From Chrysoperla carnea (Eukaryota > Arthropoda > Insecta > Neuroptera > Chrysopidae): 64,000 nucleotides of DNA. The stretch spans positions 29,279,501 to 29,343,500 of the forward strand of contig NC_058341.1 in the NCBI RefSeq assembly GCF_905475395.1, given 5' to 3'. Below are positions 1 through 63,800 of the stretch, one piece after another. The first letter of the stretch is position 1, and each line of letters starts with the position of its first letter. The translations under genes and the position numbers were made by a program. Below the pieces are notes generated by a model. That model was not told where the DNA came from, did not search any database, and worked only from the letters and a program-made list of their open reading frames with translations.

Positions 1-237
1 AATGAAAACTGGTAGCCAAGTAAAATAAGTTCCAAAATTTTTTAAATTGGAATATATTCTTCAGCTATCATAACAATACATAACAATAATAAATAATTAA
101 GTATAATAAATAAATACCTAATAATTGAGGCATTCAAAAATTTATTGTGACAAACTAAAATATTTTTTAACATGTGTTAGAAAAACAAAGTGAAGAAAAC
201 TGTTATACATGAAAACACAAATAATTTTTAATTATTT
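1..237. other. Upstream flank of silk gene 1
   Basis: AT-rich DNA with no open frame or repeat that I recognise. It leads into the promoter of the first silk gene; more distal regulatory sequence probably lies outside the window. Confidence 0.5.
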
Positions 238-334
238 TCACGAAATTGTAATAAAAGATTATGTGATAAGAGCGTTATTATCACGACAAAATGCATATAA
301 AAGCAGCTAAAAATTAACAAGTATCTTTTCAACT
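238..334 (+). promoter_or_regulatory. Promoter of silk gene 1: two TCACGA boxes, TATA box, initiator-like site
   Basis: TCACGA occurs at 238-243 and 281-286. TATAAAAG lies at 296-303, with an initiator-like TCAACT at 329-334, which would give a short leader of about 17 nt before the ATG at 348. The second TCACGA begins exactly 15 nt upstream of the TATA box. The same two boxes, in the same order and with the same 15-nt spacing of the second, are found upstream of silk gene 2 although the surrounding sequence has diverged. Assignment as core promoter is by motif and position; the role of TCACGA is inference. Confidence 0.6.
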
Positions 335-347
335 ATAAACAAACAAA

Positions 348-3226
348 ATGAATATCAAATTTGTACTAATTGTGGTAGCTGCCGTACTTATACAGCTATT
401 CAATTATCAAGACAGTGGATGCAATGTGATCGCCTACCCAACTGCGGTAATATTTCATCAAAAATAATAACATTTAAAAAATAATGAATTTCTGCTTATT
501 GCGTTTTGTTACTCCAAAAACAGTCCTGTGGTGATTCTGATTCAGGATCAGGTTCAGCAAGTTCAGGCGCTGCGTCAGGAGCTGCATCTGGTTCAGGAGC
601 TGCATCTGGTTCAGGAGCCGCTTCTGGTTCAGGTTCAGCTGCAGCATCTGGAGCAGCTTCTGGTTCAGGTTCTGCTGCGGGATCAGGAGCTGCCTCTGGC
701 TCAGGTTCTGCTGCGGGATCAGGAGCTGCTTCTGGTTCCGGTTCTGCTGCAGGATCAGGAGCCGCTTCTGGTTCAGGTTCCGCTGCAGGCTCGGGAGCTG
801 CTTCTGGATCTGGATCTGGTTCATCTTCGTCGGGATCCAGTTCATCGGGAAGTTCAGGAGGATGCGGAGGAGGAAGTGGTTCCGCATCGTCTGGAGGATC
901 ATCAGCATCCGCAACCAAAAATTCTGCCGGAGCTTCGTCTAACGGGTCTTCTGCAGGAGCATCGAATGGTTCAGCAGGTGCGTCTTCAGGAGGCTCTTCA
1001 GCATCAGCAACCAAAAACTCTGCGGGAGCCTCATCTGGAAGTTCGTCTGCTGGAGCATCTAATGGCTCAGCAGGTGCTTCATCATGTGGATCTTCAGCAA
1101 CAGCAACCAAAAATTCTGCCGGTGCCTCATCTGGAGGATCTACTGCCGGAGCATCTAATGGTTCAGCAGGTGCCTCATCTGGAGGATCGTCGTCATCAGC
1201 CACCAAAAATTCTGCGGGTGCTTCATCTAACGGTTCATCTGCTGGAGCATCAAATGGTTCAGCAGGTGCATCTTCTGGTGGATCCTCATCATCAGCAACC
1301 CAAAACTCTGCTGGTGCTTCATCAAACGGATCATCTGCTGGAGCATCAAATGGCTCAGCAGGTGCATCTTCTGGTGGATCTTCATCATCGGCAACTCAAA
1401 ACTCTGCTGGTGCGTCTTCTAACGGATCTTCTGCTGGAGCATCAAACGGTACAGCAGGAGCATCGTCTGGTGGTTCATCATCATCCGCAACGAAAGAATC
1501 CGCTGGGGCATCATCTAATGGATCAACTGCGACTGCAAGTAAAGACTCAGCTGGAGCATCTTCTGGTGGATCATCAGTTGGTGCAACTGCTTCTGGAGCG
1601 GGAGCAGCATCAGGTGGTTCAGTATCATCAGCTACTAAAAATTCCTCAGCTGCATCTTCGCAAGGATCCAGTGTTTCGATTTCAAATGGAGTTGTAAGCG
1701 CAGCATCAAATGGAGCTACCACGAGCGCTGGTGCCGGTTCCGCGTCTTCAGCATCAGGTGGATCCTCCGCAAATGTAGGAGGTGGATCTGCATCAGGATC
1801 ATCCAATGGAGCAACTTCGAGCGCTAACGGCTCCTCGGCATCGGGATCATCTGGAGGATCAAGCTCTTCGGCTGGTGCAGGAAGTGCATCTGGTTCATCA
1901 GGAAACTCCAGTTCATCTGCCAGTGGAAACACCGCATCAGGATCATCCGGAGACTCCAGCTCATCTGCTGGTAGTGGAACAGCATCAGGATCATCTGGAG
2001 GGGCCACCTCAACTGCTGGTTCGGGATCAGCTTCGGGTTCGTCAGGAAGTTCAAGTTCATCTGCAGGTAGTGGTTCTGCATCTGGATCATCTGGAAACTC
2101 TAGCTCATCAGCTAGTGGTGGAACCGCGTCAGGATCATCTAACGGAGCTACCTCATCAGCTGGTAGTGGAACTGCATCTGGCTCATCTGGTGGCTCAAGC
2201 TCTTCTGCTGGAAGTGGAACTGCATCAGGCTCATCTGGAGACTCCAGCTCTTCTGCTGGTAGTGGAAGTGCATCTGGATCTTCTGGTGGAGCCACTTCAT
2301 CTGCTGGTTCGGGATCAGCTTCGGGATCGTCAGGAAATTCAAGCTCATCAGCTGGTAGCGGATCGGCATCGGGATCATCTGGAGATTCTAGTTCATCAGC
2401 TGGTAGTGGAACTGCATCTGGATCTTCTGGTGGAGCCACTTCAACTGCAGGTTCGGGTTCTGCTTCGGGGTCGTCAGGAAATTCAAGTTCTTCAGCTGGT
2501 AGTGGATCGGCATCGGGATCATCTGGAGACTCTAGCTCCTCAGCTGGTAGTGGAAGTGCATCAGGATCATCTGGTGGTGCTTCCTCATCTGCTGGTTCCG
2601 GATCTGCTTCCGGCTCCTCAGGTGGATCTACTTCAGGAGCTTCTTGTGGATCAGCTTCTGGTTCATCTGGAGACTCAAGCTCCTCAGCTGGAAGTGGAAG
2701 TGCGTCAGGATCATCTGGTGGTGCTTCCTCATCAGCGGGTTCTGGATCTGCTTCAGGTTCTTCAGGTGGATCTACTTCAGGAGCTTCTAGTGGATCAGCT
2801 TCTGGGTCATCAGGAGGATCCAGTTCCTCTGCTGGTAGTGGATCTGCATCGGGAGCATCTGCAGGATCGAGCTCAGCTGCTGGTTCAGGATCTGCATCGG
2901 GTTCTTCAGGTGGATCTAGCTCTGGAGCTTCTAGCGGCTCATCAGATGGATGTGGCTCCGGAGGCTCTAGTGGAGCAGCTTCAGGAGCAGCCTCTGGTTC
3001 AGGATCAGCTTCTGGCTCAGGATCAGCTTCTGGTTCAGGAGCAGCTTCTGGCTCAGGAGCAGCTTCTGGTTCAGGAGCAGCTTCTGGCTCAGGAGCAGCT
3101 TCTGGCTCTGGATCAGCATCTGGTTCAGGATCAGCTGCAAGTTCTGGAGCTGCCTCTAGTTCAGGTTCAGCTGCTGGATCCGGATCTGCTTCTGGTAGTG
3201 GATCTTCTGATGATTGTTCTTGTTGA
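348..3226 (+). CDS. Egg-stalk-type cross-beta silk protein, gene copy 1 (2 exons, 933 aa)
   Basis: Exons: 348-446 (33 codons) and 524-3226, joined in phase 0 across a 77-nt GT-AG intron; stop TGA 3224-3226. The start is fixed by exon 1, which encodes a signal peptide (MNIKFVLIVVAAVLIQLF, then polar residues). The repeat exon has no suitable ATG at its own 5' end. Layout of the precursor: about 34-140, GSGAAS-like hexad repeats; about 155-425, 16-residue repeats of type GSAGASSGGSSASATK alternating with NSAGASSNGSSAGASN; about 430-840, 16-residue repeats of type SGSASGSSGDSSSSAG; about 850-925, hexads again; tail SSDDCSC. Cys at 25, 35, 147, 221, 741, 843, 931 and 933. Almost wholly Gly/Ser/Ala. 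Lacewing egg-stalk silks have 16-residue Gly/Ser/Ala repeats that fold as 8-residue cross-beta strands, are made in the female accessory gland and are drawn into stalks. The family call is from memory of that architecture. The alternative is another insect Gly/Ser silk or a glue protein. Confidence 0.87.
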
Positions 3227-3247
3227 ATCGGTGCGAAAACCTCAAAG

Positions 3248-3320
3248 GTAAATAAATACATGAATAAAAAATAATTGTTCATCATGTTTGAAATACTAAT
3301 GGTGTTTGTTTTATTTTTAG
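3248..3320 (+). other. Possible 3'-UTR intron of silk gene 1
   Basis: A donor (AAAG|GTAAAT) lies 21 nt after the stop codon, and an acceptor (TTATTTTTAG) ends at 3320, giving a 73-nt intron close in size to the gene's first intron. AATAAA motifs also occur inside it (from 3251), so the transcript may instead end here. The second silk gene has an equivalent donor/acceptor pair in diverged sequence, which favours the intron. Confidence 0.4.
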
Positions 3321-4944
3321 TATACAACTTGATCTTATCTTCAACATCTTATTTTTTGACGATTGGATTGTTTTTAATATTTGTTAAAGAATTTATTTTC
3401 AATCTAGTATTTATTTTCTGTAACTTATCTCATGTAATTAGATTATAGCCGAAATATAATTATTAAATGTTCATGTAATATTGTATTATATATATATCAT
3501 CTCCTACATTCCACTATGTTTCGCTTCCCTATCAATTAGATTTAACCTTAAGTTAAGAACATACAAAATTTAGATAACATTATTAAGAATATCGGCGTAA
3601 TATTTAAGTTATTTGAAAATACAAAAATTTTTTCTTGCTTATTAGCAATAAAATAATAAGCGTTGGAAAAATGCTCGTCTTGCGTTTCACGGCATTATAA
3701 TGCAACTACGAGATAGATGCTGATAATTATGTTTAATAATTATACAGAGATTAAAGGAAAACTCTAAACGAAGAAAATGTTTTTAAATTGTCGTAGGATG
3801 CTTCATTATTGATCACGCACGGTTTATCGAAGCACCTATTTTAGAAGTTTCGAAAATTTTGATTTTTTTGCAACAAAAATATATCATTAAGAGCTAAAAT
3901 TGAGACCAGAACGGATTTCCTGCAGAGTCATACAAGCCGAAAAAATAAGTGTGGAAAAACGCGACACTTTCTTGACAAAACCATGTTTTCTCGAAAATTT
4001 TCGTACGGGTTTGAATTTAGCTAACCAATTATTTTTTCTTTGCTTCACAACCCTCTGTTATTGTTTTTAAGTCTTTTTACGTTTTTCGCACATTTCCGCT
4101 TTTTTTAAACAATTTCCTACACTCCGAGTTTTTCCAAAGTATATTTTTTACGCACTATTTTACTCCTAATTATCTCGTTGAAAAAACCAGACCGGATAAT
4201 TATAAAAAATTTTAAATTTTTTTGCCTCTACTATATGTGCTAATCGTCTATTTATGTTAGTGAGTGTGTTCCGTCACTGTGATTAAACGAGTTATTGGAT
4301 CTCGATTTATGTGGTATCGTTGAGTTATTTCACCCGCTCAAAACGATTAAAAATGTTAAATATATTCTGTTTGGAATCCAATGAAAGAAGAACTTAAAAA
4401 GTACATTCTAATTCTATAGCATTACGAATTTTTCAAAATTAACTCTGCCTGTGATGCCTCATAAAGTAGTAGGTAGATTTAAAAATTTTTATCAAATTTA
4501 AGATATTTTAAGCATATTTAAAAGAGAATTTAGAAATTGTACTTAGTCATCAATACCGTTAACAAGGTGAAAGCTTAAAACTTTGGAATAGCTATATTTT
4601 TTTAAACAATTTTTAATTAATTATAGTATGAATAATTAAAATTGTCTGATATTAATTATTAGGGGAGTTAATAAAATAGTCCAGAAACAATTTGACATTT
4701 ATCCGACTTCCATACCTTTTTTCAAATATTTTTAAATATTCGATCCCGTGATAGCTTCTAGATGCAAAGTATAATAACAAATAATGATGTGGGTGGCCTC
4801 TGTTATAGACGTATATGTCAGAGAAGCGGAGGTTAAACCCCTTTCTTTAAAATGTGTAAACACTCTTGGATATAAATTCAACGACCTGTCAAAATATGAA
4901 TCCATCTAGTACTTTTCCAGTTTTGAGACCATAAAAATACAAAA
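3321..4944. other. Spacer between silk genes, 5' part
   Basis: AT-rich, no coding frame of note. ATTAAA near 3462 and AATAAA near 3648 could serve as poly(A) signals for silk gene 1. I see no tRNA, no structured RNA and no recognisable mobile element in it. Confidence 0.4.
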
Positions 4945-5172
4945 GCTAAGCGTCCTTAGAGCAGGGTCATTTATAAATATATGGTATTAAATTATTATTT
5001 AAGTAGTATTTAATCGATAATAAAGTGAAAAAATCGTATAATAGACAGGGCCAATCGTGAATCCCAGTCTATTATGCGGTTTTTTTCCTTAATTATTCAT
5101 TAAATACTACTTAAATAATTATTCAATAACTTATATTTATAAATATTGACCCAGCTCTGAAGTACGTTAAGC
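4945..5172. mobile_element. Fold-back MITE with about 100-bp imperfect inverted arms
   Basis: The left arm (from AGCGTCCTTAGAGCAGGGTC at 4949) is matched in reverse complement by the right arm (ending at 5168, reverse complement ACGTACTTCAGAGCTGGGTC). The similarity continues inward through ATTATTTAAGTAGTATTTAAT to the centre near 5055. TA flanks both ends, as in Tc1/mariner-type insertions. No coding capacity. Confidence 0.65.
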
Positions 5173-6481
5173 TGAGTGCATCTTCTGCGCCCTCTATTTC
5201 AAAAGCGGTACAAATACATGTTTTAGAAAAATTTGTAGAAAATTGTATCTTCTACAACTTTTATAATGAATGTTAATGCGATTGAAGAAAAAAAAAAAAA
5301 AAAACGAAATATTCACAAAAAAATGACTTGCACGACTTTTGACCTTGAATATATAAGGACGTGTTCGCGGTACCATTTGTGACTTTTGAGATAACATTTG
5401 TACTATCATAATGAAGGTTTGTACAAAAATTTACCTTATCCCGTTAGATTCCTTAGTGAAACCCTAAGATGTTTGGTGTATTACTATATAATACATTGAA
5501 ATGGCTATGCACGTGGAAAAAATAAATAAAATCACTTTATACCTTTTTTTGTTAAGCGAATAGTTCCATCAGAACTTCAAGAAAAGTGATTCTACTCTTT
5601 TGTAAAACGGCAATTAATTTCAACAGAAAATATGATGAAGACATTAATTTTGACCTTGACGTTAAGATACAATGTTATTTATTGAAAAATTATTTTATCT
5701 AAATGGAAAAGCTCGTTGAACTCTCATTTGGGTACATATTTGAAAATGAAATATTCCATCATTTTCACGTTTCATATTTTGAGGGTGGATTCTGAGCACA
5801 ATTTCTCGACTTAAACCATTGTTTAACTCGTTTAAGAAATAACACACAAATGCGATTCATCTCTTCCTTTTAATTGCATTTATGTGCAAAACGAGTGTCT
5901 TTCTTTATAGCAATTTAATTTTCTTTATAGCAAAATATTTTTCATACTTTTAACAAAAAAGTATGAATTTTCCAAATTATTCTTTAGAAAATTACCTTGT
6001 TACATAATGAAGAATTCCTTTAAAAGCTCTATAATATAGGATATAAGTTAAAAATGCAAACTTAACAGCTCAAATATTTAAAGGACCCCGCACGATAAGA
6101 CAGGAAAATGAGTTTATGTGAAACTTTTTCATACCGCAAGGCCACAAAATTTTTAATGAATAGTTTTCTAATTACGGACGATCAAAGCTACACATATATT
6201 ATATTAATAGTATATGACTACTGTCTTAATAATGATACAATACAACAGTTTTGTACGAAGAACGTACAACACTGACTATCAAGGCAATGAAACATGATAA
6301 AACTATACAGAAACACACACGTATTAACACCTGTTGAGGAAATGAGCAAATCGGAATCACGCTAAATTCACATTTTTCAGCCTGTTTCTATGGCAAATTA
6401 CGTTATAATACATTGAAAACAAGTTTAGGAAAAAACCATTTATCATTTGCAAGTTCTTTATTAAATTACAATTGTAATATA
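5173..6481. other. Spacer between silk genes, middle part
   Basis: AT-rich sequence with a poly(A) run near 5287-5303 and no supportable gene. Short frames here lack any recognisable domain. Confidence 0.4.
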
Positions 6482-7120
6482 TCACTACATAATATAAAAC
6501 AAAGTCGCTTTCTCTGTCCCTATGTCCCTTTGTATGCTTAAATCTTTGAAACTACGCAACGGATTTTGATGCGGTTTTGATTTTTTTAATAGATAGAGTG
6601 ATTCAAGAGGAAGGTTTATATGTATAATAACATCCATTAAATAGTGGAGAAGTACTGCTATTTTTGAGGTTTCTAATGTGATGTCGTAAATAATTACATT
6701 TTTTTCGCTTACATTGCAAACGCAGGCTGAACCCTACTAGTTTTATCAAAATAATGTACTAAGTATTGTACACATTGAAAAGGTCTACAGAAAAGTCCGT
6801 GATGGTATATGTCTATCTCTTATGGATAATCCACAATAACTTTTTTTTGTCATTTACTTTTTACGACAAATAAGATAGCAGGAAATCTTCATGGTATAAA
6901 GAAAGGGGAATTGTTTTACTCCAAATTTAACGCTTGCGGGCCACGGGCAGTAATGAATAAATCAAAACTACTGGATCGATTTTAATCACATAGGCTATAT
7001 ATTTTATACCCGTGCGAAGCCAGAGCGGGCCGCTATGTTTTTAGATACAACGTTCACAGTTTTTCTGTAGTGTATTTAGTATCAGCATTGCACCCGTGCG
7101 AAGCCGGGGCGGGTCGCTAG
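6482..7120 (+). mobile_element. Non-autonomous Helitron, 639 bp, complete ends
   Basis: It begins with TC (TCACTACATAATATAAAACA) and ends with CTAG preceded by the GC-rich terminus GAAGCCGGGGCGGGTCG. It is flanked by A on the left and T on the right, the signature of Helitron insertion between A and T with no target duplication. An internal degenerate copy of the same GC-rich terminus lies at 7009-7033 (ending CTATG), suggesting an older end or a composite element. No coding capacity is visible. Confidence 0.75.
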
Positions 7121-7508
7121 TATTTAATATGAAAAAGTGTTAGGTTCATTTCTTCTATTCTTAATGCCTGTCGTCCCTATAGTTATCTGGTATTTCACAC
7201 TATAAAACATTAAATTTCAAATTAAATTATAATTATAATTTAGTCGATTTAAATGAGGTGGTCTAATTAAAATGTATTTTTGTATTTAATTTTTATTTTT
7301 TATTTTATACTTTTTAGTTGGTTTTTTTTTCTTGTGTCAATATATTGTTTTGTTGTACGACTTACACCTGTTCTATCTTTTAGATATCTATCTATTCTAA
7401 TAATTTGTACTGTACTCGTACTGCTAGAAAATATTATTAAACATTATTTTGCAAGATAATAAAAAGAAATATGAAGATAATAAAGCAATGAATTAATGTT
7501 TTTTATTT
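7121..7508. other. Distal upstream flank of silk gene 2
   Basis: AT-rich, with T-rich runs near 7290-7340. No gene and no clear similarity to the flank of silk gene 1 until the first TCACGA box at 7509. Confidence 0.4.
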
Positions 7509-7628
7509 TCACGAACTCATAAAATAAATTACACGCTTAACGTATAAGCTATAACGTATTTTTACTATATCCACATATCACGACTAAATTCATATAAATG
7601 TAGCGAAAATTTTGAGTAAAATCAACAA
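7509..7628 (+). promoter_or_regulatory. Promoter of silk gene 2: two TCACGA boxes, TATA box, initiator-like site
   Basis: TCACGA at 7509-7514 (in ATTTTCACGAA, as in gene 1) and at 7578-7583 (in ATCACGAC, as in gene 1). TATAAATG at 7593-7600 starts 15 nt after the start of the second box, the same spacing as gene 1. An initiator-like TCAACA has its A at 7624, 31 nt from the TATA start. The inferred leader of about 50 nt is longer than in gene 1 and unrelated in sequence. Confidence 0.6.
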
Positions 7629-7673
7629 GAAGTTTCTTCAACACATGATCTATAACAATTGCATACAAGCAAC

Positions 7674-10633
7674 ATGAATATCAAATTTGTACTAATTGTG
7701 GTAGCTGCCGTACTTATACAGCTATTCAATTATCAAGACAGTGGATGCAATGTGATCGCCTACCCAACTGCGGTAATATTTCATCAAAAATAATAACATT
7801 TAAAAAATAATGAATTTCTGCTTATTGCGTTTTGTTACTCCAAAAACAGTCCTGTGGTGATTCTGATTCAGGATCAGGTTCAGCAAGTTCAGGCGCTGCG
7901 TCAGGAGCTGCATCTGGTTCAGGAGCTGCATCTGGTTCAGGAGCCGCTTCTGGTTCAGGTTCAGCTGCAGCATCTGGAGCAGCTTCTGGTTCAGGTTCTG
8001 CTGCGGGATCAGGAGCTGCCTCTGGCTCAGGTTCTGCTGCGGGATCAGGAGCTGCTTCTGGTTCCGGTTCTGCTGCAGGATCAGGAGCCGCTTCTGGTTC
8101 AGGTTCCGCTGCAGGCTCGGGAGCTGCTTCTGGATCTGGATCTGGTTCATCTTCGTCGGGATCCAGTTCATCGGGAAGTTCAGGAGGATGCGGAGGAGGA
8201 AGTGGTTCCGCATCGTCTGGAGGTTCATCAGCATCCGCAACCAAAAATTCTGCCGGAGCTTCGTCTAACGGGTCTTCTGCAGGAGCATCGAATGGTTCAG
8301 CAGGTGCGTCTTCAGGAGGCTCTTCAGCATCAGCAACCAAAAACTCTGCGGGAGCCTCATCTGGGAGTTCGTCTGCTGGAGCATCTAATGGCTCAGCAGG
8401 TGCTTCATCATGTGGATCTTCAGCAACAGCAACCAAAAATTCTGCCGGTGCCTCATCTGGAGGATCTACTGCCGGAGCATCTAAAGGTTCAGCAGGTGCC
8501 TCATCTGGAGGATCGTCGTCATCAGCCACCAAAAATTCTGCGGGTGCTTCATCTAACGGTTCATCTGCTGGAGCATCAAATGGCTCAGCAGGTGCATCTT
8601 CTGGTGGATCCTCATCATCAGCAACCCAAAACTCTGCTGGTGCTTCATCAAACGGATCATCTGCTGGAGCATCAAATGGCTCAGCAGGTGCATCTTCTGG
8701 TGGATCTTCATCATCGGCAACTCAAAACTCTGCTGGTGCGTCTTCTAACGGATCTTCTGCTGGAGCATCAAACGGTACGGCAGGAGCATCGTCTGGTGGT
8801 TCATCATCATCCGCAACCAAAGAATCCGCTGGGGCATCATCTAATGGATCAACTGCGACTGCAAGTAAAGACTCAGCTGGAGCATCTTCTGGTGGATCAT
8901 CAGTTGGTGCAACTGCTTCTGGAGCGGGAGCAGCATCAGGTGGTTCAGTATCATCAGCTACTAAAAATTCCTCAGCTGCATCTTCGCAAGGATCCAGTGT
9001 TTCGATTTCAAATGGAGTTGTAAGCGCAGCATCAAATGGAGCTACCACGAGCGCTGGTGCCGGTTCCGCGTCTTCAGCATCAGGTGGATCCTCCGCAAAT
9101 GTAGGAGGTGGATCTGCATCAGGATCATCCAATGGAGCAACTTCGAGCGCTAACGGCTCCTCGGCATCGGGATCATCTGGAGGATCAAGCTCTTCGGCTG
9201 GTGCAGGAAGTGCATCTGGTTCATCAGGAAACTCCAGTTCATCTGCCAGTGGAAACACCGCATCAGGATCATCCGGAGACTCCAGCTCATCTGCTGGTAG
9301 TGGAACAGCATCAGGATCATCTGGAGGGGCCACCTCAACTGCTGGTTCGGGATCAGCTTCGGGTTCGTCAGGAAGTTCAAGTTCATCTGCAGGTAGTGGT
9401 TCTGCATCTGGATCATCTGGAAACTCTAGCTCATCAGCTAGTGGTGGAACCGCGTCAGGATCATCTAACGGAGCTACCTCATCAGCTGGTAGTGGAACTG
9501 CATCTGGCTCATCTGGTGGCTCAAGCTCTTCTGCTGGAAGTGGAACTGCATCAGGCTCATCTGGAGACTCCAGCTCTTCTGCTGGTAGTGGAAGTGCATC
9601 TGGATCTTCTGGTGGAGCCACTTCATCTGCTGGTTCGGGATCAGCTTCGGGATCGTCAGGAAATTCAAGCTCATCAGCTGGTAGCGGATCGGCATCGGGA
9701 TCATCTGGAGATTCTAGTTCATCAGCTGGTAGTGGAACTGCATCTGGATCTTCTGGTGGAGCCACTTCAACTGCAGGTTCGGGTTCTGCTTCGGGGTCGT
9801 CAGGAAATTCAAGTTCTTCAGCTGGTAGTGGATCGGCATCGGGATCATCTGGAGACTCTAGCTCCTCAGCTGGTAGTGGAAGTGCATCAGGATCATCTGG
9901 TGGTGCTTCCTCATCTGCTGGTTCCGGATCTGCTTCCGGCTCCTCAGGTGGATCTACTTCAGGAGCTTCTTGTGGATCAGCTTCTGGTTCATCTGGAGAC
10001 TCAAGCTCCTCAGCTGGAAGTGGAAGTGCGTCAGGATCATCTGGTGGTGCTTCCTCATCAGCGGGTTCTGGATCTGCTTCAGGTTCTTCAGGTGGATCTA
10101 CTTCAGGAGCTTCTAGTGGATCAGCTTCTGGGTCATCAGGAGGATCCAGTTCCTCTGCTGGTAGTGGATCTGCATCGGGAGCATCTGCAGGATCGAGCTC
10201 AGCTGCTGGTTCAGGATCTGCATCGGGTTCTTCAGGTGGATCTAGCTCTGGAGCTTCTAGCGGCTCATCAGATGGATGTGGCTCCGGAGGCTCTAGTGGA
10301 GCAGCTTCAGGAGCAGCCTCTGGTTCAGGATCAGCTTCTGGCTCAGGATCAGCTTCTGGTTCAGGAGCAGCTTCTGGCTCAGGAGCAGCTTCTGGTTCAG
10401 GAGCAGCTTCTGGCTCAGGAGCAGCTTCTGGCTCTGGATCAGCATCTGGTTCAGGATCAGCTGCAAGTTCTGGAGCTGCCTCTAGTTCAGGTTCAGCTGC
10501 TGGATCCGGATCTGCATCTGGTTCAGGATCAGCTGCAAGTTCTGGAGCTGCCTCTAGTTCAGGTTCTGCTGCTGGATCCGGATCTGCTTCTGGTAGTGGA
10601 TCTTCTGATGATTCTGATGATTGTTCTTGTTGA
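7674..10633 (+). CDS. Egg-stalk-type cross-beta silk protein, gene copy 2 (2 exons, 960 aa)
   Basis: Exons 7674-7772 and 7850-10633; stop TGA 10631-10633. The signal-peptide exon and the 77-nt phase-0 intron are identical to gene 1. The repeat exon differs by scattered substitutions (for example Asn to Lys in one type-I unit) and by 27 extra residues near the C terminus: one added copy of a 24-residue hexad block (SAASSGAASSSGSAAGSGSA plus four residues) and an added Ser-Asp-Asp, so the tail reads SSDDSDDCSC. Cysteines keep the layout of gene 1 (25, 35, 147, 221, 741, 843, 958, 960). Same predicted role as gene 1: a secreted structural fibre protein with 16-residue cross-beta repeats. The intact frame through 2.8 kb of repeats argues for an active gene and not a pseudogene. 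Confidence 0.87.
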
Positions 10634-21973: not shown

Positions 21974-22686
21974 CGCCATCCATAAATTTAAATATGATGT
22001 GGTTAATCGTAGTATACGCTTCTTTCATTTTCACATTCCTGTTTGGTGCGGTTTGACTGCCTTTATTTCAGTGCGGCTCAGGTTCATAACCGTAAAAATA
22101 TATACTGAGTGTTATATTATTAACCAAATTTGAAATGGAGAATAGAAAAGTGAATAGAGTGTGTTGTAAATAAATTAATAAAAGAAAAAAAATTGTTTAT
22201 TTAATTAGAGTTCATTAATTCTACATCTGCTCATATTTTATTGTTTTAGTTAATTATTAGTTTGTTTTATTTGTATTATAATGATTGATTGATTTTGTTT
22301 CTGAAAACAATAGACACAGTATAAATTTGATACGAAATTGATTCAATCAAGTAGTATTTAAGTAGTTGGGTACTTTTTTTTGCATAGAAGAATCGTTCTT
22401 TGAAAAGTATCAAAAAAATGAGTAACGAAAGGTTAATTTTTTTTATTCTAATTGAAATTGATATTTTGCCAGGTGTTACTGCTTAAATTCATGCCCAAAA
22501 TGTAAATGTGTAAATAAGGCTCCATACACTTACGTATAATGTATACGCATAAAAAAATTATTTTATGTTCAGCATTAAATATGATTTAATGCCGATGTGC
22601 ATTATAATATGTATTACCGAAGAAATTGACAGTTTTGTATGTCAAAATGTAGGTAAAAAATCAAATATGTTCAATAAGTTGCTATA

Positions 22687-23185
22687 AAACAAGTTAAAAC
22701 AAACAATTGACTGAGGTAATTGTTGAAATATATGTAAAGACAGTGTTGATTGTCCTGTCACATTACGCATACATACATGTCACACATATATAACTGATAT
22801 GCCCATATAATACACTATACAAATTGCGCATAATTTGCGCTCTCATGGGTAAACAGTGATGCTTACGAAAAAATCTTTCAAATAAAAGGTGTTATTTTTT
22901 TGATAAGGAACATTTTTTTCATTTAAACTTTTGTTCTATCTCTAACGGTTTACAAAATGTGTGTAAAGAACCCAATCCCAATTGACGTATGTTGCTCATT
23001 TACGAACTTGACCTCTCTTTTTACGTCCTTAGCATGCTATAAAAATTTCAGCTTGATACCTCTTTTCGTTTTGGAGTAACCGTGATGACAGACGGATAGA
23101 TAGACGACAGACAGACAGACAACCGGAAATGTGCTAATTAGTATGACTAAACTCAGTATACCTTGGTATATTTCGTATACATTTT
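22687..23185 (+). repeat. Interspersed repeat family A, copy 2
   Basis: Carries the family A landmarks in order, from AATTGACTGAGGTAATTGTT to CCTTGGTATATTTCGTATAC, with a GACA-rich microsatellite (about 23090-23120) at the site where other copies carry GGACGGACGGAC. Confidence 0.7.
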
Positions 23186-31920: not shown

Positions 31921-32498
31921 ATACCATGTATACATATATGAAATATACATGCCTAGTATATAAAGTTTAGTCTCAAGTTTCTAACGATTAAAAATATTGA
32001 TTCTACGAAAAAAAAATTTGGTATAAGTGTTCATAGAATCATTTAATTAGTCTATTTTCGGTTTTCCGTCCGCCCGTCCGACCATCCGCCCGTCTGCCTG
32101 TCAACACGATAAATCAAAAACGAAAAAATATATCAAGCTGAAATTTTTACAGCGCACTCGGGGCGTAAAATGTGAGGTCTTGTTCGTAAATGAGCAACAT
32201 AGGTCAATTTGGTCTTGGGTCTATAGGACCCATCTTGTAAATCGTTAGAGCTAGAACAAAATTTTTAATGTAAAAAATGTTCCTTATAAAAAAATAAACA
32301 ACTTTTGTTTGAAACATTTTTTTGTAATCATCACTGTTTATTTACATATTAGATGCAAATTTTACAGTATGTATTAATATGGAATTATCAGTTATGTATG
32401 TGTGACATGTATATGTGTGATATGATGGAGTAATCAACACTGTCTATACATAGTATTTATCAATTAACTCAGTCAATTGTTTGTTTTCACTTGTTTTA
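31921..32498 (-). repeat. Interspersed repeat family A, copy 5
   Basis: A full-length-looking minus-strand copy from ATACCATGTATACATATATG to TTTGTTTTCACTTGTTTTAA, with all internal landmarks in order. Confidence 0.72.
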
Positions 32499-35400
32499 AT
32501 TAAATTTAGTTATTATTTTATTCTTAGAGACTCATTATTTTCTACATGGACTGTACGGTTAACCAACAAATATTTTAATTAATTGTTAAATTACTGCCAC
32601 GATTTATAATAATGCCTTTTTTTCAAAATATTTGATAATAAGTATTCAATGTCAATTAAAAAGTTTATTGAACGTTATTCAATAAGTATAGGACGTTACC
32701 TACTCTCAAGGTATATAATATTTTGATTTGACTGACCTATTGTGTATGATGAAGTTATTCTCATCGTTTGGATAATAATGATTCGTGATTGCTGATTTAA
32801 TTATGTTATATTATTATACATTTATATATTATACAAGAATATTATTTTGAAAAAAAAAAATTTTTTTTTTTAATACACACACAAATAATGACCAACATTG
32901 TTATTATTTATAAATATGGTTTGTGATTGATTATACATTAATGGTTGTAAAAATTGACCACCCAAGCAATCAAATGTAATGTGCTCCTACCGTGTTGCAT
33001 ATTCGATTACATCAGTACTCATGCGTCGATTCTTTCTGGACTAATTAATTTGTTATCTCGATGTTGCGGAAAACGAAAAGTATGTTCAATTAGTCCTAAG
33101 AGTCACTAAATCAGTAAATATATGAAAATACATCAGTTTAATTATACAGTTTTACATCAGTTCAATTCTACTAAGTTTTTGTGGGGCTTATGCTCCATCG
33201 ATTTTTACTTTATAACTATTGCATAAGGAGACACCAGCAAAATGGTTTTGGTACCTATCTTTGACCAAAAATAAAAAGTAAACTCAAGAATTAAATTTTC
33301 AAGGCTATGGTATGTCTCTTTGTCTTTTGTTCTATACAAGTGTTTCTAAGGCATCATTATATGTTAGTCTGTCTATCCAAACTTCAAACCGATTCCTTCA
33401 AAATCCAGTTAAATCCGTTTATATTGTAATTTGCAAGCCACAACTAATGAGGTTTTATAATAAATTACTGTTATTTAGTCGAGTTTAGAACTATAGTTAT
33501 GTGAACTTCGATTCGAACCACTGTGTCTATAAACAAGAAATGCGATGTTTTTTTTTCATACTGTTATTTATTTTATTCACAAATAATAACTAAATCATGG
33601 ATCTGATTTCTGTTTTGTTGAAGTTTTCAATCAAAATTATTAATCTAATTGTTTAAATTTAACTGTACCCATAATATTCTGTTGCTTAATTTTATATATA
33701 GGTAGAAGTAAAATATAAAATTCAAAAATTAATTGAAAAATATTTACTTCATGTTTGTTTAACAGCATAATATATCCGCACTGATAAACCTGAATTTTAT
33801 CTTTAGGCATTGTAGAAAAAAATATCCATAGCTATGCTTTTTGAAGTTATATGATTCAAATTATGAGAGATGCAAATATTTTTCGACATATTTTTTGTTT
33901 TTTGTTTTTGTTTTTGTTTTTTTTTTTTTTTTAAATAAAAGTTTGGTACTCCGGATATTAATTTCAAAAACAATTTTCAGTTATACTGATTTCAACTTTC
34001 ATTTTGAAAAGATATTGGGCTGAATTTGAGTATATGATCCAGTATAAAAATTTTCAATTAATAGTACCTAGTAGTGTGTGCATGCTTCGTCTGTAACTAA
34101 TAAGACACTAAATGAAGGGGGGAAAATTCGTTAATAAATAAAAATGGATCTAACAGTTTTTTTCAAAAATCTTTTTATAAGCACTTGTTATACCCTCAGG
34201 AGGCTACACCGCGCGATTTGCATAGTTTCTTTGGTCTCTGTTTTTAAATTTGATTTGAAAAATGAGATAAAAATAATTGTACCAGAAAATTTTCGGAAAT
34301 ATTCCGACAAAAGGAGACAAACACTTTTGTGATGGCAGGGCAAAGTTTCGATTCCAATGATTGACTTAATACTGCAGATTGTTAAAACAGTTATTTTTGT
34401 AGAAACTTCCTGTTTGACTCTACAATTGAATCATTATTACCCCTCCGATTTGCATTCAATAATAATTAATTTAATTTTAAAAACAAATATATAAATTGTA
34501 TACTTCCTGATTCTTAGTATTTATTTCAGCAAAATGATATATAATTACATACAAATACGCACTCATATTTGGTAAGATCCATAATTATTATTGAATATTA
34601 TAACATCCTATTATGGAGTTTTTATCAGTAACTAAAATAAACTTTCTTAAAAAAAAGATAATTATTTTAAATTAATCGTTTAATATCCATAAATATATAT
34701 TTTAACGGTATTTTGTAACATAACTTTTTTTATATTATATCGAATTTAATTTTTTTACAAATATTATTTACTAAATAAACACAGAAGATACGGCAAGTTT
34801 TGTTTCACTAATTTAAGTGAGTTATTTAGTAAATATTGTACAGAATGTAACAAAATAAATGGTCAGTATTTGAGGGGCTAATAGACTACGCACCAACGAT
34901 CATTTTTGTGTAATAAATATGTTTCCGGCAACGATCCCCTTGGAGCTACAGACCTCTAAACTTGGAAACCTTACAAATAGAGTAGTTTTCCGACATTCCC
35001 TAACAAATATTACCAACAATTTTCGTTTGAAATTTTTTTATATTATGAAGAAGAGCATAAACACGAAAGAATGTGCGATGAGTTTCCGATTCTCGATATA
35101 CCTCCAAGTGGTAGCATCTTTAACAAACGGTTAGAGAAAGTTCACAATTCTAAGTTACATAAATGTTTTTAATAAACATACGAACAGCATGACGTCGAAA
35201 AACATAACTTCCAAAAACGAGATAGATTCGGTACAAATTAAAAAAATTATCAGATCTGTAACTCTGAAGGCAACTGTCTATTGTGGGACACATGCAGGAT
35301 ACATGTTTATATCATCAAAATTCTTATAATGGCAAAATCTATCAGCCACTCGAATGTTCTTCATTTATTCTGCTACACCCGGTATACATCATTTTTTAAT

Positions 35401-37395: not shown

Positions 37396-38703
37396 TAAAG
37401 GGTGTTTTTTTTTAGAGGTATAGAACTTTTAAATGGAATAAAACAAAGATGAGTTTTTTTATTGATATGAAATTTACTTTATTCGAAAGACAATCTTCTG
37501 GCATTATAATTTAAATACGATTTCTGGCATATGACCGCCACGGCTGGCTCGGACGTAGTCTAATCTGGAGGTCCAATTTTCGATGACTTTTTCCAACATT
37601 TGTGGCCGTATATCGGCAATAACGCGCCGAATGTTGTCCTCCAAGTGGTCAATCGTTTCGGGCTTATCGGCGTAGACTAGCGACTTCACATATCCCCACA
37701 GAAAATAGTCAAGCGGCGTTAAATCGCACGATCTTGGAGGCCAATTCACGGGTCCCAAACGTGAAATTATGCGGTTACCAAACGTTTGCGTCAATAAATC
37801 AATTGTGGCACGAGCTGTGTGACATGTTGCGCCATCTTGTTGAAACCACAAGTTCTGCACATCATGGTTGTTCAATTGATGAACGAAAAAGTCAGTAATC
37901 ATCGCTCTATAGCGGTCACCATTGACTGTAACGTTCTGGCCATCTTCGTTTTTAAAGAGGTACGGACCAATTATTCCACCAGCCCATAAAGCACACCACA
38001 CTGTCAGTTTTTCTGGATGTAACGGTGTCTCAACATACACTTGAGGATTATCATAACTCCAAATACGGCAGTTTTGTTTATTGACGTATCCATTCAACCA
38101 AAAGTGAGCTTCATCGCTAAACAAAATTCTCTTATGAAAATCGGGATCGACGGCAATCTTATTTTGGGCCCATTCACTGAATCTACGCCTTGATAGGTGA
38201 TCGCGAGGCTTCAATTCTTGCACGAGTTGGATTTTGTAAGCACGCAAACCAAGATCTTTCCGCAAAATCTTCCATAAAGTGGATGGACACATATCCAATT
38301 CCTGTGCACGATGGCGGATAGACTGATTCGGGTCTTCCTCTACGCTACGCTCTACAGCAGCAATGACTTCGTCTGTACGCACTGTACGACGTCTCTGTGG
38401 ATGCGTATTATCATTTAGAGTAAACGTGGTGCGAAAACGTTCCATAGTTAATCGAATTAATTGCTCTGATGGACGATTATGTTGACCGTAAAATGGACGT
38501 AGTGCGCGATACGTATTTCGAACAGAACCATGATTTTCAAAATAAATTTGCACAATTTGGAAGCGTTGTTCAGGCGTCAGTCTATTCATGTTGAAATGCC
38601 AAACCAAACTAAACATAAATCACTTGACAGCTGACAAAATGGCCGCCAGTTAAAAAAGTGTTGCCAACTTAAAGTTCTATACCTCTAAAAAAAACACCCT
38701 TTA
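37396..38703 (-). mobile_element. Mariner-family transposon, DD41D group, apparently complete
   Basis: The element proper is 37398-38701 (1,304 bp). The left inverted repeat 37398-37432 and right inverted repeat 38669-38701 (AAGGGTGTTTT, then AGAGGTATAGAACTTT) differ only by a T-run indel and one T. TA target duplications lie at 37396-37397 and 38702-38703. It encloses one uninterrupted transposase gene. It sits 4 nt beyond the CTAG end of a Helitron-like element. Confidence 0.9.
37504..38616 (-). CDS. Mariner-like transposase, 370 aa
   Basis: Cut-and-paste transposase that would bind the element's inverted repeats and insert at TA. Residues 14-44 (TPEQRFQIVQIYFENHGSVR and on) form a first helix-turn-helix; about 80-135 a second (PNQSIRHRAQELDMCPSTLW). 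The catalytic triad is Asp168 (ILFSDEAHFWLNG), Asp261 (WFQQDGATCHTA) and Asp303 (DLTPLDYFLWG). The last two are separated by 41 residues, hence DD41D. Length is normal for mariner (about 340-370 aa), with no stop or frameshift. Met1 and Met10 (MNRLTPEQ) are both possible starts; Met10 sits closer to the usual N terminus. The frame lies between matching inverted repeats, so the copy may be recent or still active. It is not a host gene. Confidence 0.93.
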   Translation of the reverse strand: MFSLVWHFNMNRLTPEQRFQIVQIYFENHGSVRNTYRALRPFYGQHNRPSEQLIRLTMERFRTTFTLNDNTHPQRRRTVRTDEVIAAVERSVEEDPNQSIRHRAQELDMCPSTLWKILRKDLGLRAYKIQLVQELKPRDHLSRRRFSEWAQNKIAVDPDFHKRILFSDEAHFWLNGYVNKQNCRIWSYDNPQVYVETPLHPEKLTVWCALWAGGIIGPYLFKNEDGQNVTVNGDRYRAMITDFFVHQLNNHDVQNLWFQQDGATCHTARATIDLLTQTFGNRIISRLGPVNWPPRSCDLTPLDYFLWGYVKSLVYADKPETIDHLEDNIRRVIADIRPQMLEKVIENWTSRLDYVRASRGGHMPEIVFKL

Positions 38704-49907: not shown

Positions 49908-53445
<3,538 letters not shown>

Positions 53446-59435: not shown

Positions 59436-60280
59436 ACCCTAAAGATATCATTAATTCATTCAAACGTTCGTCATTATACCCAAGGAAAGAACCGAAACTC
59501 CAAAAAGGGGTTTAAATCCCTCCCCTCTCCTTGAGTAGTCTATTTTTCTGTAGGAATTTGTTAAACCAAATAAATATCTGTTCCATAAAATTTCTCATGA
59601 AGCTATAATAATATATCTAGCTTTTAGTTCAATAAAAATGGGGAAACCGAGTTGAAAAAAACAAAGTGGGGATTTTCTGTCCTTCTTGAGGGAAACAGGT
59701 AGGATTAATCAGACTTGACAGAATTTAGAAGCGATTGTAGGTATGGATTAGCTTTAGGTTGATAAAAAAGACCTATTTCCCAGACTTTCGACTCCTCTCC
59801 ATTACAATTACTGACTGTTACTTCTGTAAACGGTCCAAAATTACATCCCGTATATAATTTATAACCAACGACAACTCTATACATTTCCCAACCATATCTG
59901 TCTAGTCTCGTATATAAAACTGAGTTAACCAAACACAAAGTACAACCAGAACCATATACTTTACTCCCTTATGTTGAATGTAGTAAGTTTGCTAGCATAT
60001 ATATTCCATTCACTAAGCTTAAAACCAACTACCATTACCAATTAGAAGTTTTCAAATAGTTATTGTTTCAAATTGTTATTAACGTCGAGGAAATAATATC
60101 TACTTGTTTATTAGTTCTGTATAGAATTATTTAAAAGGTTATCAGTTAAAGCCAAGCCATGCAACACAAAGTGGTAGTGTAATTTGTTTTACCATTATTT
60201 AATTTTTTTTGTTTTACCTGATTATTTAAATCAATTTCTTTTTAAGATTTGTTTAAGTTAAAGTGTATAAATTCTAAATG
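59436..60280. other. Gene-poor stretch
   Basis: AT-rich. A minus-strand 77-codon frame (59705-59938) is open but has no recognised domain or signal. Confidence 0.35.
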
Positions 60281-60820
60281 AAAACAAGTGAAAAGAAACA
60301 ATTAACTAAGTTAATTGTTGAAATACCATGTATAGACAGTGTTGATTACTCTGTCACATTACACATACATTTATGTTACACATAACTGATAATCCCATAT
60401 TAATACATACTATAAAATTTTCAGCTAATGTGTGCCCTCGTGAGTAAACAGTGATGATTACAAAAAAATGTTTCAAAGAAAAGTAGTTTATTTTTTGGTA
60501 AGGAACAGTTTAACTTTTGTTCTATCTCTAACGGCTTACAAGATGGGTACCCCAGACTCAATCGACCCATGTTGCTCATTTACGAACTCAACCTCACTTT
60601 TTACGTCCTGAGTGCGCTGTATAAATTTCAGCTTGATATCATTTTTCATTTTTTAGTTATCTTGTTCACAGACGGACGGACGGGTAACCGAAAATGAACT
60701 AATTAGATGATTCTATGAACACCTATACCAAATGTTTTTTCGTAGCATCAATATTTTTAAGCGTTAGAAACTTGGGACTAAACTTAATATACTAGGTATA
60801 TTTCATATATATATGGTATA
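60281..60820 (+). repeat. Interspersed repeat family A, copy 7
   Basis: A full-length-looking plus-strand copy from AAACAAGTGAAAAGAAACAA to CATATATATATGGTATA with all landmarks, including GACGGACGGACGGG. Confidence 0.72.
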
Positions 60821-63800
60821 TAAATGTGCAAGTAACGAGATAAATTCGTGAGTACCGTTTCAGCATCCAGTCCTAGATGGCGTACCCGTAACTTAGTATT
60901 CGGTACATACGGTTTGTTTAAAAATCTACATGTACGATGGTGAAAACTAAAAGAGAAATGTTTTATGATTTAAGAAAATATATTTTAACAAAATACGCAG
61001 ATTTTTAATGGTCGATTAATTTCTGATTCAAAAACACTAATTTTTTATGATCTATGCCAATTCCACTTTAACAAAAGTTTGAATCATGTTTGATTCACAT
61101 AATCATGTTTGATTCATACGATGAAAAATTTATTTGATAAAATTATAAAAATTTTAATATTAATATATTTAATACATTCGTGAGTCGTTTAATAAAAAAA
61201 CTCGTAAAGACATTTTTACAAGTATTACAAGTTGTGTAGACATTTAAAATGGAAAAACTGTCAGCATGAAATAAATAATATTAAACAAAACGTGTTGCAT
61301 ATTATATAGTACATCTCTTTTTAATAAAATCTAAAATACTATGTGTATTCACCAAAAAAGACGAAAAGAAAGTTGATGAAAAAATTCCGGTGAAAAATGA
61401 GATTTTTTTTATTTGTCAAATGTGACATTTTTGTTCTATAAGGGAAAATGAACTTATTAGTTTAATTAAACATATGTTTTTGGTCCATATTTTTCGTTTT
61501 TTCCGTTTGTTATTCATCAGTTCCATACATGAAAATATATTATTTTACACTAAAATAGTGTAATGGTGCAAGAACAGGCTGCTAACAAACTAACAAATGT
61601 ATATTTTTTAACAAATGTATAAAATACGTTTATTAATATTTTTTATGTCGAGTGACTCGATCGAATTCGATGAATGATCAGATGATTGAGTCTCATGACG
61701 TGAAACCCATACCGGTTGGTGATACCTGCAATACTTCTAGTGGATAGTCCTATTGAATACTGTAATATTACTTATGCTTACATAAATACTATAATATCTA
61801 TCTCTGTACCATACAAGCATTGTAGTTAACGCATTTCGCACATACATTTCTTACCGTGTACGAGTAAAATTGTTGTCTATATGCATTGCTTGTATCGTCG
61901 AACACTTATGTGAATATAGCATTAACCTAGATACGAAGCACAAAAAGTATTTCAATAACAATTTATGTTAATACTTTAAAAAGTTTTAAAACAGTTAAAA
62001 AAGCTTACATACACACTGAAATTGGTACAATATATCGTGGTTTAAAAGATTCTTTCTCTGTATAAAAAGAATTTGTTTTAGTTCGAAAAAAAAGAATACT
62101 TAAATTAATAAATAAAATGATATTTTTTATCTTTTAAATGTATTCTAGTCTACACTCACTTGGCCCCAGTCTTTTCAATCAACGATTTTGAAGAACTATC
62201 CCGATTTTACTTGTAATAAAACTTTTTTTTATTTGAATTTAATAGAGCCCAATGCATACAATCGACCAATCAAGCAAAAAGTTATTGAAAAAATTACTTT
62301 GTTTAAAGACAAAATATCAAATAAATTTTTGTTATTTAACGCTTTCGTGTTGAGATATCTATTGCCTTTTATTTTTAAAAAAGATTTTTGACGATATTAC
62401 ATCCGGCAATTTGCCTAGAGTTATGTTGTTTTACAATCTGTTAAGATTTCATTAAATTGGCTTAATAAAAAAAAATTCTTACAAGATAAGTTACCAACCA
62501 ACACACCTCTATTTAAGTTATGACTCTGGTATCTGGACAAGTGGTTCGAAGTAGCAAACAGTTTACATGGGTATTGAAAATATTTGTATGTACATTGAAA
62601 AATTGGTTTTACAGAAAAAAATAACCAGGGGATGAATGATTGTCTAAGAAATTTTCAGTCCTCTTAATATTAACAAATTTCAAGTTCAATTTTTCTCCTC
62701 TATCCATCGCCCTAACTTCTATGCACTATTTTTGGTAATCTTTACAGAAAATCTTGATGTTATTACGCAACGATTGGAGTAAATTCGAGACTTATATTAC
62801 TTTTCATTCAAGGGAAATAATTAACCAAAAAAATTTAACCTAACACACAAATTCTTACAGCCATCAACCTAAAAGTGGAGTTGATACATTGTCCTGACCA
62901 TAAAACGTAGTAAAATATGCTGAAAATTTCGATTTCTATTCTTGGGTCGAAATTAATAATAAAATCAATTATAGTTGTTGTACTTATTTATTATTTCTTG
63001 TAAGGACCACACTTAGGAATATAAATATTATCCGCTACAGTGAGAAATTTTGTTGACATAAATGGACTTAAATATAAATGCAAAAAACGAGGTGTGCGAT
63101 TTTGCTAATATTTGTTATATTTTTTTGTTATGGAAGGCCATAGATAAATCATTTGTGAAATAAAATAGAAAGAAAATGAGCATAAAAGGGATAAAATTTA
63201 GAAAAATAGCTTACATTGTTTTCAATTTCTTTATAAAAAAAAAAAAAAAAACGGTTTGACTAGCTGCTTATTTCGTGAGCGTATTAAAGCATTGTACAGA
63301 CCTTTGATAGAAGTCTAGTATATAATTGAATTTATATAAAAACCAATCTTGATATTCGAAGAATGTTACAATTAAATTTATAGAATGATATACTGAACAA
63401 AATTAATTAATAAATATTTTAAATATTTAGTTTAGAGTGTTAGTATGGTATCTTACTGTTTTTGCGGTTCAATGTGTGTAGTAATAATATAACTAACACA
63501 AATCAAACATTTCTTGTTTTGTTTTATAAGTTGGGTTGTTGCTTAAATAAGTGAAAAAAACCGATGGCAGATATTTATACCAGATATATAGATAGCTATT
63601 TATTTGTCTTTTTAGTCATTTATTCTACGAAAATAGAAACTTATTCACTGTCATCAACGGTCAAAGATGTGGATTGTAAATACGATTTTTTTAAATTATT
63701 TTTTCAACACAAGTTATATATTTATCTGTTTTTTTTTTTAAAGCCGTGCATTAAAATATCACAATGAAAATTACTCACTGTTACTCCTCAACAATATTTT

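Follow-up and report, generated by a model that had tools for sequence, protein, structure and literature searches.

The window analyzed here, a stretch of 64,000 nucleotides, lies on chromosome 5 of the green lacewing Chrysoperla carnea (C5:29279501-29343500). Lacewing egg-stalk silk is among the few natural cross-beta fibers and is a model for fibers made without a spinneret. Two silk genes, C (933 aa) and D (960 aa), stand side by side on the same strand of the window (Table 1). They had been described from the letters alone, in the earlier note, as a tandem of complete genes, each with a tiny signal-peptide exon and one giant repeat exon. This arrangement is seen in both genes, and the coordinates and lengths proved exact, with splice sites and frames in agreement and no internal stops in the reading frames of C and D. 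The proteins also bear out the description "secreted Gly/Ser/Ala": Ser, Gly and Ala together make up 86.8% of protein C and 87.0% of protein D, and the first exon of both genes is hydrophobic, with a putative signal peptide judged by eye. Predicted masses, including the signal peptide, are 74.2 kDa for C and 76.4 kDa for D. The repeat protein fell into no Pfam family at E up to 0.01, and the sole match in a PDB sequence search, OCM3 (9ufe, E 0.0004), was taken as compositional. Long open frames of up to 643 aa also run antisense over the silk exons (496-1206, 1396-3327 and 7822-8532, all on the minus strand), which arises from the codon pattern of the repeats.

Table 1. Features of the silk gene pair, in window coordinates.
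Feature	Position	Strand	Basis or remark
TTTTCACGA upstream of C	235..243	+	part of a 10-mer common to the four chromosome 5 genes
TATA box of C, TATAAAAG	296..303	+	motif by eye
Near-identical tract in C, read as a gene-conversion tract	339..3196	+	2849/2858 identical to 7665-10522
Gene C exon 1, 33-residue signal-peptide exon	348..446	+	translation, splice sites, frame
Gene C intron, 77 bp, phase 0, GT..AG	447..523	+	predicted from sequence
Gene C exon 2, repeat exon	524..3226	+	933 aa together with exon 1
Gene C core 1, residues 150-395, 16/32-residue repeats, Lys/Asn at turns	872..1609	+	borders by eye
Gene C core 2, residues 440-835, 16-residue repeats, acidic	1742..2929	+	borders by eye
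TTTTCACGA upstream of D	7506..7514	+	
TATA box of D, TATAAATG	7593..7600	+	motif by eye
Near-identical tract in D	7665..10522	+	matches 339-3196
Gene D exon 1	7674..7772	+	identical to exon 1 of C
Gene D intron, 77 bp, phase 0, GT..AG	7773..7849	+	predicted from sequence
Gene D exon 2, repeat exon	7850..10633	+	960 aa together with exon 1
Gene D core 1	8198..8935	+	borders by eye
Gene D core 2	9068..10255	+	borders by eye
Two adjacent 72-bp units in D	10451..10594	+	70/72 identical; one such unit in C

Each protein contains two repetitive cores, separated by about 44 residues if the borders are drawn by eye. The self-match of the four cores reaches 0.61-0.75 at a lag of 16 residues and 0.76-0.87 at a lag of 32, while in 500 shuffles per core the top self-match over lags 2-39 was 0.36-0.42, and the 16-residue repeat is therefore far above chance. 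The claim that the proteins consist almost entirely of 16-residue units, however, was too broad: these cores are real, but they account for 642 of 933 residues, or about 69% of the 933-aa protein, and the N- and C-terminal regions are made of 18-, 36-, 54- and 72-bp repeats, that is, 6-residue units and their multiples (e.g., 12 residues). Residues other than Gly, Ser, Ala, Thr and Val are confined to two of eight phases in core 1 of each gene (28/28), and 13 of 15 such residues occupy two phases in core 2. This two-of-eight pattern would be expected of 8-residue strands with turns between them, the fold itself lying beyond it. At the C terminus, the pair carries an Asp/Cys motif that reads DDCSC in one protein and DDSDDCSC in the other.

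The accessible part of PMC5485732 reports three egg-stalk proteins from C. carnea, ChryC1 (78.2 kDa), ChryC2 (48.7 kDa) and ChryC3 (30.3 kDa), expressed in a ratio of 43:8:1. ChryC1 (KY906176) is described there as Gly/Ser/Ala-rich, with 16-residue cores, two repetitive domains with a short non-repetitive stretch between them, and an Asp/Cys C-terminal motif, and MalXB1 of Mallada signata (Weisman 2009) is said to share 78% identity and the two-domain layout with ChryC1. C and D resemble ChryC1 in species, Gly/Ser/Ala composition, 16-residue cores, two domains, Asp/Cys tail and, roughly, in size, and they share the two-domain layout of MalXB1, a protein from another genus that is compared here by description. 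The cores, layout and tail support the egg-stalk silk identity that had been proposed for the pair, and C and D probably encode the main egg-stalk protein, ChryC1, which they match in its published description rather than letter by letter. Their predicted masses lie 2-4 kDa below that of ChryC1, a gap for which differences in repeat number would account. ChryC1 is known as cDNA; its genomic copy number, promoter and conversion are absent from the accessible part of PMC5485732.

Low-complexity Ser-rich proteins are known to converge, and the absence of a Pfam family and a comparison with ChryC1 by description leave some room for a different secreted repeat protein, such as a sericin-like glue, chorion or mucin, that merely resembles egg-stalk silk. 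We consider this very improbable, because the register is a strict 16 residues with period-8 turns and because the Asp/Cys tail, the two-domain layout and, roughly, the size are those published for ChryC1 of the same species. Six repeat peptides had no occurrence in the literature searched; in the accessible parts of two further papers, the word silk is absent from PMC12758981, and PMC10889211 has silkworm only.

One DNA and three protein searches of the 559-Mb genome (337 contigs) found five further genes of the same build, giving at least seven: four on chromosome 5, two on chromosome 4 and one on chromosome 1. This count is a lower bound since the search scores only the best candidates. The chromosome 5 genes lie on the same strand in the order A, B, C, D, with B to D occupying 16.05 kb and A placed 44.6 kb before B; gene A (L009) encodes 360 aa (29.7 kDa) and gene B (L014) a Lys-rich protein of 691 aa (57.0 kDa). 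Genes E (722 aa, 56.1 kDa) and F (685 aa, 52.7 kDa) stand on the same strand of chromosome 4, 4.3 kb apart. Gene G on chromosome 1 (L019 3657-5313 = C1:85799657-85801313; 470 aa, 40.4 kDa) joins 16-residue Gly/Ser/Ala/Lys units to a Pro/Tyr/Gly-rich tail and may be another secreted material, e.g., a glue or coat. In all seven genes, a signal-peptide-like exon is followed directly by a phase-0 intron, 63-77 bp long in six genes and 244 bp long in G, and then by a single repeat exon. The four chromosome 5 genes also carry cysteines at like places, namely close to the start of exon 2, at the border between the N-terminal end and the core, at a core turn and at the C terminus; the core-turn context is GASS-C-GS in all four, and the C-terminal motif contains CSC in A, C and D and reads CDDYYDYEC in B.

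Two other candidates, C4:44449173-44450923 and C1:122935268-122936330, were rejected as family members, being other repeat strings. The remaining weak matches of the gene B search, 15 in all, were likewise set aside, as none has a comparable 16-residue unit; 14 are mostly simple Gly-Ser repeats and one is a six-residue repeat, and eight lie on contig C6. Those eight are Gly-Ser-coding simple-repeat open frames at 32.3-37.5 Mb (L025, L027-L029, L033, L034, L037 and L039), often preceded by a GLGWVRLGWV-like string, and they look like a satellite-like family that is found on other contigs too. The size of contig C6 fits the X chromosome.

The other family members can be set beside the remaining published proteins. 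Gene A is like ChryC3 in mass (29.7 versus 30.3 kDa) and in 16-residue periodicity, yet its core shares 79% identity with core 1 of C and D, whereas ChryC3, compared here by description, is presented as assignable to neither ChryC1 nor ChryC2 (PMC5485732, accessible part). Gene B is like ChryC2 in its positively charged 16-residue core but unlike it in mass (57.0 versus 48.7 kDa), and it contains one Trp and three Tyr. We take it, from standard values, that a coefficient of 18,450 for ChryC2 would need about two Trp and five Tyr. That figure is the calculated extinction coefficient given for ChryC2 in the accessible part of PMC5485732. Gene F comes close to ChryC2 in mass, yet with one Lys it differs from ChryC2 in charge. 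Genes E and G match the masses of ChryC1, ChryC2 and ChryC3 in no case.

The near-identity of C and D had not been mentioned in the earlier note. Their shared tract of 2858 bases contains nine differences, two just before the ATG, six at 898-1492 and one at 3190. The six internal substitutions all fall at third codon positions, five of them silent and one an Asn/Lys exchange, and they are more clustered than evenly distributed substitutions would be, with p = 0.002 for the span and p = 0.03 for the largest gap. Upstream of 898, the site of the first coding difference, the genes are identical over their first 157 codons, and point substitutions are absent between 1493 and the stop. Taking one 72-bp unit and 9 bp out of the tail of D yields the tail of C without any substitution, so the difference at 3190 belongs to the 72-bp unit change; the unit and the 9-bp step make up the entire difference in length between C and D. 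From ATG to stop, intron included, the two genes thus differ by six substitutions and two repeat-length changes. That a single one of the six alters an amino acid would suit an explanation in which selection on the protein alone keeps the copies alike, but the non-coding introns are identical (77/77) and silent sites are nearly unchanged. We therefore reject this explanation, whose probability we regard as negligible.

The promoters present a different picture. Local matches between promoters, in a stretch that holds the TATA box, extend over 31/37 positions for C and D, 24/28 for A and C, and 77% over 70 bp for A and D, so that the promoters of C and D are about as far from each other as either is from the promoter of A, a gene whose core-1 DNA is identical to that of C at 467 of 594 positions. 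The corresponding local scores of 44 (C-D), 36 (A-C) and 40 (A-D) were matched by 7, 9 and 8 of 2000 random intergenic pairs, respectively, and the random pairs that reach the C-D score probably share repeats. Although the homologous C-D stretch is short (37 bp), its 6 differences set against 0 of 77 in the intron give p = 0.0009 by Fisher's test, and against the whole tract p = 1e-8. Global promoter and 3'-flank identities were rejected as proof because unrelated AT-rich pairs also reach 0.63-0.79; a Fisher test on such identities (p = 2e-7) was consequently replaced by the local matches, the random-pair controls and the local-stretch test. Downstream, the global identity of the 3' flanks of C and D, 187/277 (0.675), does not stand out from 19 random pairs, which average 0.64 and reach 0.69 at most, and their local score was matched by 15 of 2000 random pairs. 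Evidence for conversion is thus clear at the 5' boundary and weak at the 3' boundary. The chromosome 4 pair forms a contrast, with E and F differing already in exon 1 (67/72 identical), intron (45/66) and promoter (89/119) and matching best in the core at 92.8% over 1172 bp; judged from these identities, it would be an example of an unconverted 5' end.

A 10-mer, ATTTTCACGA, lies less than 250 bp from the ATG in all four chromosome 5 genes and was not found within 250 bp of the ATG in E, F or G. Its part TTTTCACGA has six copies in the window versus 1.2 expected, and none of 100 shuffles had as many. We treat the motif as a lead only, since four of the six copies are distant from the silk genes.

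Because coding region and intron are nearly identical while the promoters are about as diverged as either is from that of A, the pattern argues for gene conversion over the coding region. We consider it highly probable that C and D are old tandem duplicates of a ChryC1/MalXB1-type silk gene whose coding parts were recently homogenized by gene conversion, with promoters that are still diverged; by this pattern they would not be simple recent copies. Conversion as the mechanism is what we infer from one pair in one genome. A recent duplication of the gene body alone, into a site that already had a similar promoter, would also yield nearly identical copies with weak 3'-flank homology. Such a copy would not be a retrocopy, given that the intron was kept. 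Homologous, diverged TATA promoters stand directly before both ATGs, and the insertion would have needed a ready-made relative of the promoter at the exact spot, which makes this course of events unlikely. The second copy might also be an artifact of assembly, either a haplotype duplication or a false homogenization by polishing. Reads from near-identical copies can be misplaced, and the accessible part of PMC10116181 mentions curation of the assembly for haplotypic duplications and short-read polishing; the same source, however, gives a long-read assembly with hifiasm. Here, 4.4 kb of unlike DNA separates C from D, and the flanks of the two copies are diverged at either end, whereas a haplotype copy would carry like flanks, and we therefore rate an artifact as highly improbable, more so than the convergent repeat protein considered above.

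Under the preferred explanation, conversion between the old tandem duplicates would have homogenized them from ATG to stop, small intron included, with the promoters keeping their older divergence, and the conversion tract would end where homology runs out, near the start and stop codons. Each gene would make a secreted, Gly/Ser/Ala-rich chain, presumably in the colleterial gland. By analogy with the work on ChryC1, this chain may be disordered in the gland, and as the stalk is drawn, its 16-residue units may form antiparallel cross-beta sheets of 8-residue strands. Cysteines at the turns and ends may cross-link the chain, and with two identical copies, driven by TATA promoters related to each other, more of the main stalk protein would be made. 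A similar case has been reported in spiders: in the accessible part of PMC9779670, the histories of flanks and coding parts in an Argiope MaSp2 spidroin cluster are discordant, which was read as intergenic gene conversion. As with C and D, the Argiope silk genes are clustered, and the history of their coding parts differs from that of their flanks, but they encode unrelated proteins, are intron-rich and were compared across several species.

The pair also offers a testable reading of published transcript variants. According to the accessible part of PMC5485732, ChryC1 has four transcript variants, with "certain variations" of the Asp/Cys tail, and one of them, ChryC1s2, is a variant without the second domain. 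The repeat part of C and D is one exon, and ordinary exon skipping therefore cannot shorten it, so some ChryC1 variants may be different genes or alleles. The difference between DDCSC and DDSDDCSC would suit the published tail variations. Neither C nor D encodes ChryC1s2, which could stem from an allele or a further locus, or be a product of PCR. Since C and D are identical over the first 157 codons, N-terminal primers would read both, and the 43:8:1 ratio bears re-reading for the same reason. A wider reading, which we offer tentatively and think somewhat more apt to fail than to hold, is that in lacewings recurrent conversion bounded by start and stop codons holds the coding sequences of two old main egg-stalk genes identical, which doubles the silk dose while promoters diverge, that the variants are largely paralogues or alleles, and that six or more genes, not three, supply the stalk.

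The proteins are of a known kind; what is new lies in the way the genes are arranged, in their probable conversion and in the additional members of the family. The locus shows how the main egg-stalk silk gene is organized and how its uniformity may be kept, and where three proteins had been published, the count now stands at no fewer than six genes of stalk type and one outlier. Among the papers listed by searches of the non-subscription literature, none describes the locus, as judged by title and beginning of abstract.

Several other features accompany the silk genes. Rfam (at gathering scores) and ARAGORN gave no matches within the window. Between C and D, at 4944-5173, lies an imperfect 230-bp palindrome, 80% self-complementary, which is perhaps a small inverted-repeat transposon, and between B and C there is a long inverted repeat (L014 8440-8960), the ends of which presumably recall a mariner-type element. 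Downstream of the pair, an open frame of 371 residues (37507-38619, minus strand) carries a DUF4817 helix-turn-helix domain (Pfam) and looks like a mobile-element transposase. A dispersed repeat of about 0.4-0.6 kb occurs at 22685-23091, 31934-32504, 50486-51050 and 60272-60824, with 79-82% identity and in both orientations. Among the tested frames, a single further cellular gene was recognizable downstream of C and D; it belongs to the carboxylesterase family, with exons at 51254-53442 (plus strand) and COesterase matches in four pieces, one of them below the curated cut-off.
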